Source: Acidiferrobacteraceae bacterium
Lineage (GTDB): Bacteria; Pseudomonadota; Gammaproteobacteria; HyVt-429
Assembly: GCA_011052015.1 (NCBI GenBank)
Contig: DRJZ01000182.1
Location: 1 to 34,990 of the forward strand
Length of the DNA: 34,990 bases
Reading direction: 5' to 3'
A program made the translations under genes and the position numbers. Positions 2,954 through 34,990 of the stretch are shown one piece after another (positions within the stretch are counted from its first letter, which is position 1; each line of letters begins with the position of its first letter). Below the pieces are notes generated by a model that worked only from the letters and a program-made list of their open reading frames with translations, made no database searches and was not told where the DNA came from.

Positions 2954-4867
2954 TTACTTTCTTCTTGAAATAGGCGCTATTGCAATCAGCATGGCCCGAA
3001 TCTGACTGGTAAACCAGAATGGGTTGCTACGCACGAGATTATGGCCGCTATTGAGCGCACCCAGAGTACGGTGCCGCAATTTTTCGTTTCCGAACTTTTT
3101 TGCCAAACGCAGGCTCGTAGCCAGAAGTATGCCAGAAGGCGACGGCATGGGGCCATCAAACAGGACATCACTACCGGTTTCTGCGCCGATCAAGCTGTCC
3201 TCGCCCATACGCCAGCCCTGCGGGGTATAAAACCGTTTCCATGCCTGTTCACTTACCACCAGGGCATCGGCAAAATCTTTTTTGCCTTGGGTGAGTTCGG
3301 CCCAACTTAGCAGACCTTCTGCTACATAGGCATAATCCTCCACTGCCGCCTTGCCTATGGCGTGATGGTCTTTGCCGGTTACTGAACGTTTAAGTTCAGA
3401 CCCATTCCAAAGTCTGTCCATCAAAAAATCACGTATGTCCTGAGCGGCCTGACGGTATTGTTTGTTGCCTGTTTGCGCTGCGGCCTCGGCAAAGGCCGTT
3501 AGGGTCAGACCATTCCAGGCAGCAAGTAATTTAATGTCGACAGGTAATTTACGCTTAGCTTGTGCCGCAAGTAATTTTTTCTTGGCGCCGGCCAACAACT
3601 GTTGGACTTGGGTGCTGCTCAGCCCCATGGTCTTGGCAATGTCGTTAACCGACTGTCCGAGTACCGGCAAATAACCCCCATCAAAGGGTGGCGCGTCTTG
3701 CACTGACCAAGCCAAACGATAAGCCTGGCTTTCCTTGGTATCCAGCAATTTATCCAGCTGCGCCGAGCTCCAAAGATAGTACCCCCCCTCTATGCCCTTA
3801 TCATCCAGGGCCGACAGCGAAGCATAGTAGGCGCCGTTGGGCGCACGCATGGTACGCATTAGAAACTCGAGGGTACGATCCGCAATATCAGTATAACGAT
3901 TCTGTCCCAACACTTGGGCGGCTCGCCGATAGACACGGGCCAACTGTGCATTACCATAGAGCATCTTTTCAAAATGGGGCGTCCCCCATCCCGGGTCCAC
4001 GGTATAGCGAAAGAATCCTTCCCCCACATGATCATAGAGCCCATAATCGGCCATATGGTCCAAAGTGAGCGTTAGAAACGATTTTAGTTTGGCGGCCTCA
4101 CTATCGCCAGTGACAACCTGATCAAGCAGAAATTCCAGCTGAGGGGCAGAGGGAAATTTGGTCTGCTCGCCAAAACCACCGTGCACCTCGTCACCCATTT
4201 GCAGGGCCTGTCCCACAATAGACAGGGCATAGGCCCTGATCTGGGTACGATTGAGTTCAGGTTTTCCCGGTCCCTGGCCCTGGGTGGCATCGGCCTTGGC
4301 AAGATCAACCAGACTCTTGGAATCTTCTAACCACAATTCACCGAGACGTTTTAATACCGACATGAATTGTTTGGGTGGCATATATAGTACCCCGTACAGC
4401 GGGTAACCATCAGGCGTAACAAACACGTTCAAAGGCCATCCCCCTCGACCCCGGGTACGCTCTACAAAATCGATCATGCGGGCATCCAAAGCAGGTTGCA
4501 GTTCGCGGTCCACCTTGACCGGGACAAAATATTTATTAAGGTAAGCGGCAATATCTTTGTTTTTGTAACTCTCCTTCTGCATCACATGGCACCAATGGCA
4601 GGAGAAGTAGCCAATAGAGATATATAAAAGTTTATTCTCCTTGCGCGCCCGCTTGACTGTAGCCTTATTCCAGTCCTGCCAAGCCACCGGGTCATCGGCA
4701 TGCAAGGCCAGATAGGGCGAGGGGTGGTTCTTAAGTTGATTGCTCAGAGCATGGGCGGCCCAAGGCACACACAATGCGATAAGCAAAATAAATTTGCTCT
4801 CGCAAAGGCGCCGAGGCCGCAAAGAATGATCGGATTTATTCAACATGTGGTCATATGTAGACCGCAT
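2954..4867 (-). CDS. Exported DUF255 thioredoxin-fold protein (YyaL/SPATA20-like)
   Basis: The 637-residue product has an N-terminal thioredoxin-like DUF255 domain with the family motif SIGYFSCHWCHVM (the two cysteines at about 90 and 93) and GGWPLNVFVTPDG. A long helical region follows, resembling the six-hairpin glycosidase-like C-terminal part of YyaL/SPATA20 proteins. Many family members start directly at the equivalent of 'NxLxxxxSPYL'. Here that is preceded by a basic stretch, a hydrophobic core FILLIALCVPW and an AHA cleavage-like site near residue 40, so export to the periplasm is predicted (inference). The catalytic role of this family is not established. An alternative start is the ATG at 4846. 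Confidence is high for the family and low for the reaction. Confidence 0.85.
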   Translation of the reverse strand: MRSTYDHMLNKSDHSLRPRRLCESKFILLIALCVPWAAHALSNQLKNHPSPYLALHADDPVAWQDWNKATVKRARKENKLLYISIGYFSCHWCHVMQKESYKNKDIAAYLNKYFVPVKVDRELQPALDARMIDFVERTRGRGGWPLNVFVTPDGYPLYGVLYMPPKQFMSVLKRLGELWLEDSKSLVDLAKADATQGQGPGKPELNRTQIRAYALSIVGQALQMGDEVHGGFGEQTKFPSAPQLEFLLDQVVTGDSEAAKLKSFLTLTLDHMADYGLYDHVGEGFFRYTVDPGWGTPHFEKMLYGNAQLARVYRRAAQVLGQNRYTDIADRTLEFLMRTMRAPNGAYYASLSALDDKGIEGGYYLWSSAQLDKLLDTKESQAYRLAWSVQDAPPFDGGYLPVLGQSVNDIAKTMGLSSTQVQQLLAGAKKKLLAAQAKRKLPVDIKLLAAWNGLTLTAFAEAAAQTGNKQYRQAAQDIRDFLMDRLWNGSELKRSVTGKDHHAIGKAAVEDYAYVAEGLLSWAELTQGKKDFADALVVSEQAWKRFYTPQGWRMGEDSLIGAETGSDVLFDGPMPSPSGILLATSLRLAKKFGNEKLRHRTLGALNSGHNLVRSNPFWFTSQIRAMLIAIAPISRRK

Positions 4868-4887
4868 TGTACCGACAATAATTCCCT

Positions 4888-4991
4888 AAGGAACCTCTGA
4901 ATAATACGCTCAACCGCCAAGGCGCCGAGAACGCCAAGAATTCTCTTTTGAAAATCAACAATCTATTATCTTGGCGGCCTTGGCGGTTCAA
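4888..4991. repeat. R3 interspersed inverted repeat
   Basis: An inverted repeat has left arm 'caaccgccaaggcgccgaga' (from 4911) and right arm 'cttggcggccttggcggttc' (to 4990). Between the arms lies 'aaaatcaacaatctatta'. That core and the right arm recur at 128-170, and the left flank 4888-4918 recurs reverse-complemented at 163-191. It fills most of the gap between the DUF255 gene and tatC. No coding capacity is seen, and it resembles a small non-autonomous element. Confidence 0.7.
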
Positions 4992-7000: not shown

Positions 7001-7056
7001 CAGCCTATCCCGGCGCGGTCACTCGCGCACTCAGTGGTATGTGCACCCCTATAGAT

Positions 7057-7178
7057 ACCCTCTCCCTCCAGGAGCACCCAACAGGGCATGAAAGGGTGAG
7101 GGTGAGGGGATAAAATTAAGAACAACGTATTGATTTTAATATCCCCTCATCCTCACCTTCTCCCGGAGGGAGAAGGGA
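7057..7178. repeat. R1 REPIN-like inverted pair, copy A (hisI-hisE gap)
   Basis: Two related units face each other. The left unit (7057-7111) begins 'accctctccctcc' and ends 'ggtgaggggat'. The right unit (7141-7178) begins 'atcccctcatcctcacc' and carries a perfect 9-bp hairpin ccttctccc-gga-gggagaagg. Reverse-complementing the right unit reproduces the left unit, except that the left has an extra stretch of about 17 bases containing 'cacccaacagggcatg'. A 29-base AT-rich spacer separates them. This is the geometry of a REPIN (two REP units in inverted orientation). Copies B (20638-20755) and C (34840-34895) share it. Confidence 0.8.
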
Positions 7179-8613: not shown

Positions 8614-8765
8614 GCCACAGAGGCACGGAGTTCACAGAGAAAAGCATATATCTACATCATCATTCATAACTGTGCTGCATAACTAAGGGTACACCCAAAA
8701 TCAGCCTGGCGATCAACAGCCTAGGCATACAAGGTTATTTTCTGTGAACTCCGTGCCTCTGTGGC
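8614..8765. repeat. R2 MITE-like element, copy 1 (hisA-hisF gap)
   Basis: The terminal inverted repeats start 'gccacagaggcacggagttc' (8614 onward) and are mirrored at 8738-8765, with 24 bases matching perfectly. The core of about 95 bases includes 'catcatcattcataactgtg' and 'cctaggcatac', which align with the core of copy 3 (19529-19751). It fills 152 of the 172 bases between hisA and hisF. There is no reading frame for a transposase. Confidence 0.8.
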
Positions 8766-12021: not shown

Positions 12022-12167
12022 GCCACAGACACGGAGAGCGCAGAGGATGATTTTGCATACTATAGCTGATGGCCGTCATGATGGCTTCGGGTATATCCCC
12101 TTATTTATATATAAAGTTGAAGATGATGCAGACATGTTTTTCTCTGTGCCCTCCGTGTCTCTGTGGC
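12022..12167. repeat. R2 MITE-like element, copy 2, inverted (hisD-hisC gap)
   Basis: The arms 'gccacagacacggagagcgc' (12022 onward) and 'ccctccgtgtctctgtggc' (to 12167) form imperfect terminal inverted repeats. The core, when reverse-complemented, aligns along its whole length with copy 3. Shared blocks include 'gtctg(c/t)atcatc' and 'tatagtatgcaaa', so this is the same element in the opposite orientation. It ends 14 bases upstream of the preferred hisC start codon. Confidence 0.8.
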
Positions 12168-20544: not shown

Positions 20545-20943
20545 GTGTTGGGTTCTAGCAGGTTTACAGGGTGGCTAACGCTATCACAGGTGCCTATAGA
20601 TAAAAAATGGGGTCAGGGTCATTGCTGTCCCACTTAATCCCCTCTCCCATCAGGGAGCACCCCTAGGGCATAAAAGGGTTGGGGAGAGGGGATCGAAAGA
20701 TAAGCCATTGTTTTATATATCCCCTCATCCTAGCCTTCTCCCGGAGGGAGAAGGAATAATTCCAACTTCTAGGTTACATGAAGTCATGTCTTTGGTGCCA
20801 ACACTCGCAATCTATGTCCTGATAATCAGCATGTTACGGTGCATTAACATCGTGTTAAGTGGGACAGCAATGGGTCAGGGTCGATTTGCATTGTCCCGCG
20901 CTAACGACTACAACAGGGCACAATATCTATAATGGAGATCAGT
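20545..20943. repeat. Repeat-filled gap: R4 inverted repeat enclosing R1 copy B
   Basis: No gene is seen in these 399 bases. An inverted repeat attgctgtcccacttaa (20621-20637) / ttaagtgggacagcaat (20855-20871) brackets the centre. Each arm sits beside a directly repeated 'gggtcagggtc' (20610-20620 and 20872-20882). Such 'gggtcag' stretches resemble REP units seen near RAYT transposases (recollection, not tested). R1 copy B lies inside the bracket immediately after the left arm. A caxA promoter could lie in 20883-20930, but no convincing pair of hexamers was found. Confidence 0.65.
20638..20755. repeat. R1 REPIN-like inverted pair, copy B
   Basis: The left unit (20638-20693, 'tcccctctcccatcaggg' to 'ggggagaggggat') and right unit (20719-20755, 'atcccctcatcctagcc' with the ccttctccc-gga-gggagaagg hairpin) face each other across a 25-base spacer. 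The right unit is almost identical to that of copy A. A 32-base segment of the left unit (20653-20684) is identical to copy C at 34854-34885. Confidence 0.8.
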
Positions 20944-33419: not shown

Positions 33420-34771
33420 GTCAGGACAATAATAAGGGAAACGCCGACCCCCTCAGCGAATTGCTGGAGGCCCTCAAGCAAGGCTCCTTGGGCGACATTC
33501 GCCATCTGCTTGCCGATCTACATCCTGCGGATATCGCTCATCTACTGGAAGGGACACCACTTGATCAGCGCTTGGTGACATGGGAGCTGGTGCAAGCACC
33601 CATACGAGGCGAGGTCCTTCTTGAGGTGTCCGAGGGGGTACGCGACGATCTCATTGAGGCCATGGACAGTCACGCCGTGGTGGATGCGGTGCGCCAACTG
33701 GATACGGATGAAATCGCCGATCTGCTTCCAGACCTCCCAGACGAAGTGGTTGCTGAAATTCTTTTTACCCTGGACCGCGAAGACCGGCAACGACTCGACA
33801 CGGTCCTATCCTACCCGGAAGACACCGCTGGTGGGCTCATGAACCTGGATATGGTCACGGTTCGCGACAGCGTGTCCTTGGAGGTTGTGCTGCGTTACCT
33901 GCGTCGTCGCGGCGATCTACCTGAATCCACCGATAAGATATTCATTGTGGACTGGAACAATCGGCTAGTAGGCAGCTTGCAACTCACCACCCTGCTGGGC
34001 AGTGACGTCAAAAAACGCGTCCATGATGTTATGAATCAGGATGTGGTGTCGTTTCAATCCATGACCCCGGACCGCGACGTAGCCGCAGCCTTCGAACGCT
34101 ACAACCTGATCACCGCTCCGGTGGTGGATGTAGAAAATCGTATTCTCGGTCGTATAACCGTAGACGATGTAGTGGACGTGATCCGTGAACATGGCGACCA
34201 GGCCGTATTGGCCAGGGCCGGCCTGAGTGTGGACGACGACATCTTCGCCTCGGTCTCTGAGAGCACCCGAAACCGCGCACTCTGGCTCGGGGTCAATCTC
34301 ATCACAGCCTTTATTGCCTCCTGGGTCATTGGTCACTTTGAAACCACCCTATCCAAAATGGTAGCCCTGGCTGTGCTTATGCCTATTGTGGCCAGCATGG
34401 GCGGCAATGCCGGCACCCAAACACTCACCCTCACCATCCGTGGCTTAGCCCTGGGCACCATCACCGGGGCCAATGCCCCTAAGGTCATCAAAAAAGAACT
34501 CATGATAGGCGGACTCAATGGCATCATCTGGGCCCTGGTGGTCGCCTTGGTAGCTACTTTCTGGTTTGACGATATTCTCCTGGGCGTGATTATCGCCGTG
34601 GCCATGATACTCAACATGATCACCGCCGCCCTCGCCGGAGTGCTGCTACCCATCATGCTCAATCGCCTCGGCATCGATCCCGCCCTGGCCGGTACCGTGG
34701 CACTGACCACCATCACCGACGTGATCGGATTTCTATCCTTTTTGGGGCTTGCGGCGGTGTTTTTAGTTTGA
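33416..34771 (+). CDS. mgtE: Magnesium transporter MgtE
   Basis: MgtE is a homodimeric Mg channel gated by cytosolic magnesium. The 451-residue protein has the N-terminal helical sensor domain (about 10-130, with HPADIAHLLEG), a CBS pair (about 140-260, VMNQDVVSF and GRITVDDVVDVI), a plug helix, and five transmembrane helices with the pore signature MPIVASMGGNAGTQTLTL. Its ATG overlaps the ptsI stop (ATGA), so it is probably co-transcribed with the PTS genes. Its 3' end overlaps the convergent DUF559 frame by nine bases. Confidence 0.95.
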   Translation: MSQDNNKGNADPLSELLEALKQGSLGDIRHLLADLHPADIAHLLEGTPLDQRLVTWELVQAPIRGEVLLEVSEGVRDDLIEAMDSHAVVDAVRQLDTDEIADLLPDLPDEVVAEILFTLDREDRQRLDTVLSYPEDTAGGLMNLDMVTVRDSVSLEVVLRYLRRRGDLPESTDKIFIVDWNNRLVGSLQLTTLLGSDVKKRVHDVMNQDVVSFQSMTPDRDVAAAFERYNLITAPVVDVENRILGRITVDDVVDVIREHGDQAVLARAGLSVDDDIFASVSESTRNRALWLGVNLITAFIASWVIGHFETTLSKMVALAVLMPIVASMGGNAGTQTLTLTIRGLALGTITGANAPKVIKKELMIGGLNGIIWALVVALVATFWFDDILLGVIIAVAMILNMITAALAGVLLPIMLNRLGIDPALAGTVALTTITDVIGFLSFLGLAAVFLV

Positions 34772-34990
34772 AACGTTACTAACGTACTCATTAGTAATTT
34801 GGCTCTTCGGGAAAATTTGTGGGTAGCTCTGAAGCCTAGCCCCCTCTACCTCCGGGAGCACCCCTAGGGCATAAAAGGGTTGGGGTGAGGGGGACTCAAT
34901 CAAGGCCGTGTATATTTGCTCAAGCACAATGTCTAACTCACTCAATATCTCATGGTTCCAGAAACGCATGACACGGTATCCCATAGCTTC
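34763..34990 (-). CDS. DUF559 endonuclease-like protein, C-terminal part (5' end beyond window)
   Basis: The frame is open to the right edge and reads EAMGYRVMRFWNHEIL, then DIVLEQIYTAL. This matches the C-terminal end of DUF559 proteins (compare 'xGyrVlRFwnxeVlxxlxxVlexI'), which belong to the Vsr-like PD-(D/E)XK nuclease group. After that the reading frame runs through R1 copy C, giving SPSPQPFYALGVLPEVEG, and stops inside the mgtE 3' end. The catalytic residues lie outside the window. I recall many DUF559 entries ending in translated 'SPSPxPSP' repeats, which fits. Confidence 0.7.
   Translation of the reverse strand, partial: EAMGYRVMRFWNHEILSELDIVLEQIYTALIESPSPQPFYALGVLPEVEGARLQSYPQIFPKSQITNEYVSNVSN
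34840..34895. repeat. R1 unit, copy C, forming the DUF559 gene 3' end
   Basis: A single left-type R1 unit begins 'cccctctacctccggg' and ends 'ggggtgaggggga'. The segment 34854-34885 is identical over 32 bases to copy B at 20653-20684. Unlike copies A and B there is no facing right unit within the window. It lies 69 bases after mgtE and is read as coding sequence by the DUF559 frame on the minus strand. Confidence 0.8.

Follow-up and report, generated by a model that had tools for sequence, protein, structure and literature searches.

What connects a truncated nuclease gene with the palindromic repeat into which it runs at the very end of a contig? The question is raised by the window analysed here, i.e. 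the whole stretch of 34,990 nucleotides constituting contig C182 in a draft genome (2.64 Mb, 183 contigs, 94% complete), where the preliminary description saw a DUF559 gene ending inside a copy of the palindrome R1 and suspected a nuclease-repeat partnership similar to that of REP sequences. The features concerned are as follows.

34763 to 34990, minus strand: C-terminal 75 codons of a DUF559 (Vsr-like, PD-(D/E)XK) open frame (PF04480, E 3e-7)
34901 to 34990, minus strand: the DUF559 domain proper, a profile match to positions 79-108 of the PF04480 model, i.e. its C-terminal third only
34840 to 34893, minus strand: palindromic unit R1, copy C, with the hairpin CCCCCTCTACCTCC..GGGAG/AGGG and the tail TTGGGGTGAGGGGG inward, facing the gene (32-base identity and own-genome BLAST)
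34859 to 34875, minus strand: 17-bp insert CACCCCTAGGGCATAAA interrupting one hairpin arm of R1, as compared with the uninterrupted hairpins of C7, C83, C155 and C15
34801 to 34836, minus strand: right terminal inverted repeat (TIR) of a mobile element, GGCTCTTCGGGAAAATTTGTGGGTAGCTCTGAAGCC, 36 bp, outer end at 34801
20638 to 20754, no strand: gene-less, REPIN-like R1 pair arranged as hairpin-tail-spacer-tail-hairpin, tails inward
7055 to 7176, no strand: gene-less R1 pair of like geometry

Along the minus strand, the DUF559 C-terminus is followed by R1 and the TIR, and then by mgtE. The fragment belongs to PF04480 (30.7 bits for a curated cut-off of 20.6), the 5' part of the gene and the catalytic part of the protein being missing because the contig ends at 34990. 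The geometry of copy C is that encountered at the 80 DUF559 loci considered below. Regarding the overlap of gene and palindrome, the open frame does overlap R1, running across the whole of it to a stop at 34763, beyond the element, but the DUF559 domain stops just short of R1, at about 34901. Similarly, a stop codon does lie within the hairpin in the sister copies C7 and C83 but not in the window copy, whose frame reads through R1 because of the 17-bp insert. Nor is R1 the end of the unit, since the TIR lies beyond it. The core shared with the distant copy is exactly 32 bases as described, which is the longest exact match between the two (GGGAGCACCCCTAGGGCATAAAAGGGTTGGGG, at 34854 and 20653), with 95% identity over 42 nt, and the gene-less inverted pairs are likewise confirmed; both have the layout of R1-DUF559-R1 minus the gene. 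The insert is common to the gene-linked copies C117, C93, C32 and C180 and the gene-less 20.6-kb copy, and a diverged form occurs in the 7.07-kb copy. Hairpins with a 17-18-bp insert at the same arm position (34859-34875, 20658-20674 and 7073-7090) form an R1 subfamily that includes both gene-linked and gene-less copies; in Legionella, locus L128 has another, longer insert. The pair at 20.6 kb sits within a further inverted repeat (20622-20637 / 20855-20870; TTGCTGTCCCACTTAA / TTAAGTGGGACAGCAA) with direct repeats outside (TGGGGTCAGGGTC / TGGGTCAGGGTC), a second type of vehicle in this genome.

A gene cut by a contig end, with all three own-genome copies bearing a DUF559 domain at contig ends, is what chance or an assembly artefact could produce; yet a multicopy element itself yields contig breaks. 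The element made of the DUF559 gene, the R1 palindrome and the TIR occurs about ten times in this genome and its 3' end about 16 times (BLAST). Ten copies, in subtypes of eight and two, follow a DUF559 3' end or break inside R1; the right flank differs in each and nearly all end at a contig end, because the assembler stops at a multicopy element. With some 16 copies of the 3' end and 43 own-genome matches to the R1-core pattern against none for the reversed control, chance is excluded. The terminal sequence GGCTCTTCGGAAAAATTTGTGGGTA has 31 own-genome matches at up to three mismatches, again with none for the reversed control. The left ends of the element also break off at contig ends, and five left/right flank pairs located on different contigs share identical 8-mers (GATTAAAT, TGTTTTTA, ACAAAAAT, AATAAATC and AGAAATTA), for 0.06 expected from shuffling. 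As duplications join five contig pairs and intact versions are known from G001, L086 and G035 as well as from many finished genomes, an origin in chance or assembly is hardly conceivable. The multiplicity of the module in its own genome and its recent movement there are direct observations.

Short gene-less elements bracketed by 8-bp duplications, C23 (ATAAATTT) and C133 (TAAAATCA), have the inverted partner of the right TIR at their left end and, together with C46, have the same ends and a single R1 hairpin; these three look like vacant sites or scars. A second R1 on the 5' side of the gene, for which the preliminary description had called, was found in relatives, namely in the same-genus genome G001 (L039/L085) and in L086. 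The latter is a complete gene-bearing relative of 598 bp, composed of TIR, hairpin, tail, DUF559, tail, hairpin and TIR, with DUF559 as the sole gene, and the full DUF559 copies in L085 and L086 exceed 150 bits against PF04480. The feature at the window end is the 3' end of a mobile element of about 0.6 kb, with the DUF559 nuclease as its only gene.

Beyond this genome, 80 DUF559 loci from named genomes of at least eight phyla were picked by protein alone. Most short DUF559 genes of relatives stand between two R1-like palindromes, whose hairpins point away from the gene and whose G-rich tails point towards it. A flank test made without knowledge of R1, i.e. the strongest local alignment of the upstream flank to the reverse-complemented downstream flank, placed 39 of the 80 loci above the 99th percentile of pseudo-genes (0.8 expected), and 3.5% of mismatched locus pairs. 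This test preceded the unit-scan criterion; the unit scan and the tail classes, defined only once the flanks had been inspected, gave an inward R1-type unit upstream at 46/80 loci, downstream at 51/80, on both sides at 36/80 and on either side at 61/80, the values for 3026 pseudo-genes being 0.5%, 0.56%, 0.03% and 1.0%, respectively. About a quarter of the 80 loci fail the strict unit criterion. The unit tail is a sharply bounded 13-nt G-rich motif, approximately TTRGGGTGAGGGG, and the tags GTAG and CGTC occur in 5/105 and 1/105 units. The core module, i.e. hairpin, inward tail, DUF559 gene, inward tail and hairpin (R1-DUF559-R1), is plainly observed. R1 units are frequent between genes in these genomes, so R1-rich intergenic regions might receive any small foreign gene, the DUF559 link being a mere by-product of insertion-site preference. 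However, none of 300 other ORFs at these loci is flanked by inward units on both sides (on either side in 16/300), the density of inward units at DUF559 loci is 45-fold that of the rest of the same contigs, and the repeat class follows the protein tree as described next; insertion-site preference is accordingly very improbable.

The class of the upstream unit is identical to that of the downstream unit at 41 of 58 loci, for 15.3 expected and a maximum of 28 in 2000 shuffles. When mapped on the nuclease tree, the R1 class changes 9 times, against 21.2 times when shuffled (none of 500 shuffles being as low), and the host phylum 10 times against 11.8; the R1 class therefore tracks the nuclease rather than the host. 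Among 276 genomes of the host's class, which belong to 216 genera and are not fully independent, 59 have DUF559 (E at most 1e-15), and 43 of these show the R1 unit pattern, compared with 29 of the 217 lacking the nuclease (odds ratio 17, p = 3e-18). Ten or more R1 copies are present in 26/59 and 7/217, respectively; these counts cover one R1 variant and miss genomes with other variants, e.g. G035. The reversed control gave one match over all genomes. R1-rich relatives lacking DUF559 had been named in advance as evidence against the link, and this applies in part: the more distant G048 and G050 are R1-rich without detectable DUF559, and both R1 and DUF559 are missing from G002 and G003, which belong to the same family. 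G088, G248, G153 and G079 are also R1-rich without DUF559, but for each a same-genus or same-family genome has the nuclease. Both the co-evolution of repeat class with nuclease clade and the co-occurrence across genomes are observed.

Palindromes close to the ends of genes frequently function at the RNA level, and DUF559 could simply be passive or beneficial cargo of miniature transposons, in Vsr-like repair or defence, with R1 serving only as terminators or mRNA stabilisers. Carriage by transposons is indeed apparent from the TIRs and duplications, and Caulobacter VsrA (CCNA_02930), a DUF559 protein, is reported to damage DNA and cause a DNA damage response in vivo, with a proposed role in mismatch repair (PMC12907096). 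Such cargo would however predict neither symmetrical inward units upstream and downstream nor a matched class on both sides, it fits poorly with the co-evolution of repeat class and protein, and it does not predict abundant gene-less pairs in DUF559-bearing genomes; moreover, short GIY-YIG nucleases of a non-mobile-looking subtype are without such flanks. The cargo explanation is thus rather unlikely. The partnership first suspected from one locus is strongly supported by the two-sided inward flanking, the co-evolution of repeat class and enzyme and the co-occurrence across genomes, and a specific association of nuclease and repeat is very probable. The inward-facing R1 framing of DUF559 in very different bacteria suggests a new selfish nuclease-repeat partnership.

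As for the enzyme, residues E17, D46, E57, D59, Q62 and H63, including acidic residues of PD-(D/E)XK type, are invariant in the 80 DUF559 proteins and 79 of the 80 copies are free of internal stops; the catalytic residues are intact. By profile comparison with the PDB, the family matches 3hrl (E 8e-41), an endonuclease-like protein that is itself a DUF559 member, and among solved proteins of known role 3r3p, a "mobile intron protein" with weak similarity (E 2.4e-4, profile positions 34-103), comes closest; we take it to be the homing endonuclease I-Bth0305I. Enterotoxin B chains also matched weakly (E 0.15 and above), which was judged due to chance, and membership of the Vsr mismatch endonuclease family was rejected (TIGR00632, about 19 bits for a cut-off of 97.85). 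Caulobacter VsrA and E. coli YcjD (NF007294 match) belong to the same protein family as the window nuclease. The ycjD gene is intact with its neighbourhood, sapF-ycjD-fabI, in 3360 of 5426 E. coli genomes (about 62%), and a clear inward R1 lies 3' of it in strain GN25, a degenerate one in K-12. Unlike the window element, ycjD is confined to one genomic position and has the look of an ancient copy that no longer moves. E. coli strains devoid of ycjD showed an unrelated replacement and no clean empty site for the inner module; in L170-L172 and L175, an RND/MFS efflux gene cluster adjoins sapF instead. Records with DUF559 are scarce among phages (3/50,697) and plasmids (44/72,556), and 2.9 million viral contigs gave 26 loci; the system is therefore chromosomal. 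With so few cases, plasmids offered no vacant within-species counterparts.

The module is found in more than one kind of vehicle. G035 has three copies of 532, 532 and 494 bp with TIRs of about 74 bp and DUF559 as the sole gene; 9-bp duplications flank two of them (GTGCAGATT; GTTTGTAAC) and the third matches at 8/9 positions. The full-length (532-bp) copies are 98% identical and differ at two codons, both non-synonymously, too small a number for a judgement. In G106 and G211, gene-less TIR elements with the ends TAACCCAAGTTGCTACCTA and duplications of about 6 bp (by eye) hold an R1 pair and a short spacer, and the gene-bearing unit has DUF559 in the spacer position. These elements, L251-L265, form a family of about 190 bp in which the central R1 pair is asymmetric, one tail being GTTGGGGTGAGG and the other GCCGGGGGTGAGG. 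With TIRs and target duplications of 8 bp (own genome, five cases), 9 bp (G035) or about 6 bp (G106/G211), the vehicles qualify as TIR elements or MITEs. Vehicles with unrelated ends and duplications of differing length therefore contain one inner module, and such unrelated TIRs and defined duplications are what classical transposases would be expected to give.

The preliminary description had gone further and proposed that the nuclease mobilises R1. In a broader form, DUF559 itself would mobilise or retain the whole element via the R1 hairpins, in the manner of a RAYT or of a scar-recutting, TnpB-type nuclease. In the G106/G211 elements, the gene-less R1 pair and spacer stand where the gene-bearing copy has DUF559, a relation typical of miniature elements and their autonomous parents, and DUF559 is the sole gene in the L086 and G035 elements. 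Besides, the outer ends and the 8-bp duplication of the own-genome element are presumably ISL3-like, and no ISL3 transposase domain (PF01610) was found in the own genome, although PF01610 was the sole transposase family covered, in an assembly that is 94% complete. On the other hand, the length of the duplication varies with the genome (6, 8 or 9 bp) while the enzyme family is constant, and no lone restriction-fold nuclease is known to integrate DNA with fixed duplications. Mobilisation of the element by DUF559 is unlikely; of the original proposal the partnership stands. In this genome, the copies travelled as TIR elements that generate 8-bp duplications, and for that step a classical transposase supplied in trans is indicated.

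A homing-like role of the nuclease is favoured, in part because of the weak similarity to I-Bth0305I. The starting point, the R1-DUF559-R1 module, is observed with its constant geometry, its units of matching class and its gene-less pairs of like layout, and in three genomes it is seen to be carried by TIR elements with fixed target duplications. From there on, the nuclease would recognise its own class of R1, cutting R1-type hairpins or gene-free R1 sites; upon cutting of a vacant R1, repair from a gene-bearing copy would spread the module, as with a free-standing homing endonuclease, and the gene-less R1 pairs would be non-autonomous remnants left behind. In the own genome, the module also rides inside the TIR element (GGCTCTTCGG...) with its 8-bp target duplication, for whose movement a transposase in trans is presumably responsible. 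Against the explanation as a whole count the want of a clean empty site, outer vehicles of the classical-transposase kind, the R1-rich genomes without detectable DUF559 and the quarter or so of loci that fail the strict unit criterion. The homing-like mechanism as such is tentative, its chances being somewhat below even, and the best explanation as a whole, i.e. the R1-DUF559-R1 module together with homing-like spread, is about evenly balanced between right and wrong.

To our knowledge, the only REP-partner enzymes described to date are HUH transposases (RAYTs). REPtrons, i.e. RAYT/TnpA-REP systems with GTAG-tagged REPs and REPINs (PMC3733652; PMC8266576), are the closest kind in logic, as in both cases palindromic units border an enzyme gene, the bordering unit recurs across the genome in inverted doublets that lack the gene, and enzyme and repeat classes co-evolve. 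Two defining features are nevertheless absent: the flanked gene encodes a PD-(D/E)XK/Vsr-like DUF559 protein instead of an HUH Y1 tyrosine transposase, and the R1 units have, in place of the GTAG tag, the 13-nt G-rich tail. On these same grounds, the missing tag and the framed DUF559 gene, a RAYT was ruled out as the explanation of R1. With the EDxHD/Vsr-fold homing endonucleases, which include I-Bth0305I (PMC3943268), the system shares the 3r3p match and a selfish nuclease gene within a candidate recognition site but, unlike enzymes of the I-Bth0305I type, DUF559 stands outside introns and inteins, is rare in phages and is tied to chromosomal palindromes. Like the MITEs of classical TIR transposons, the elements have TIRs, target duplications and short gene-less derivatives; unlike them, they have a nuclease as sole gene and one inner R1-DUF559-R1 module across unrelated TIRs and differing duplication lengths. 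CGTC-tagged REPs, reported as "lacking a dedicated transposase" (PMC3733652), resemble R1 in being plentiful palindromes for which no partner enzyme is known, but the R1 sequence differs and in relatives the CGTC class frames a GIY-YIG subtype instead of DUF559. A literature search in openly accessible papers, conducted mainly on titles and abstracts, returned no link between DUF559 and palindromic repeats.

CCCTC-type palindromes are among the most frequent bacterial repeats without an explanation, and the partnership could account for the spread of some of the commonest ones. If this holds true, a restriction-fold nuclease co-evolving with a palindrome class would provide an origin for CCCTC repeats, with a testable mode of spread, as well as a probable role for the DUF559 domain, including that of ycjD with its wide occurrence in E. 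coli, and homing endonucleases, miniature transposons and REPs would be joined in a single system. Other nucleases suggest that the principle may be more general, albeit from small numbers of loci. A GIY-YIG subtype (YxLASxxNGTLYxGVTS; L226, L232 and L237) is framed by CGTC-type palindromes and other GIY-YIG genes are not; 2/23 GIY-YIG loci lie beyond the flank threshold, exactly those of the CGTC-framed subtype, which bears on the puzzle of CGTC-type REPs without a dedicated enzyme (PMC3733652). By eye, inverted repeats of the ACCACAGAGG type or similar surround the PF13366 (GxxExxY) nuclease genes of relatives at 11/11 loci, of which 5/11 are beyond the 99th percentile by flank score. That DUF559, PF13366 and one GIY-YIG subtype would each drive a repeat class of their own (CCCTC palindromes, ACCACAGAGG-type repeats and CGTC-tagged palindromes, respectively), so that many orphan repeats could be explained by one general principle, is conceivable, though we would not yet call it probable. 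At the PF13366 loci L198-L206, L208 and L209, inverted ACCACAGAGGACACAGAG-type repeats frame the gene, and gene-less pairs of the PF13366-type repeat are present in the window itself, at 8614-8765, 12134-12167 and 4801-4941.
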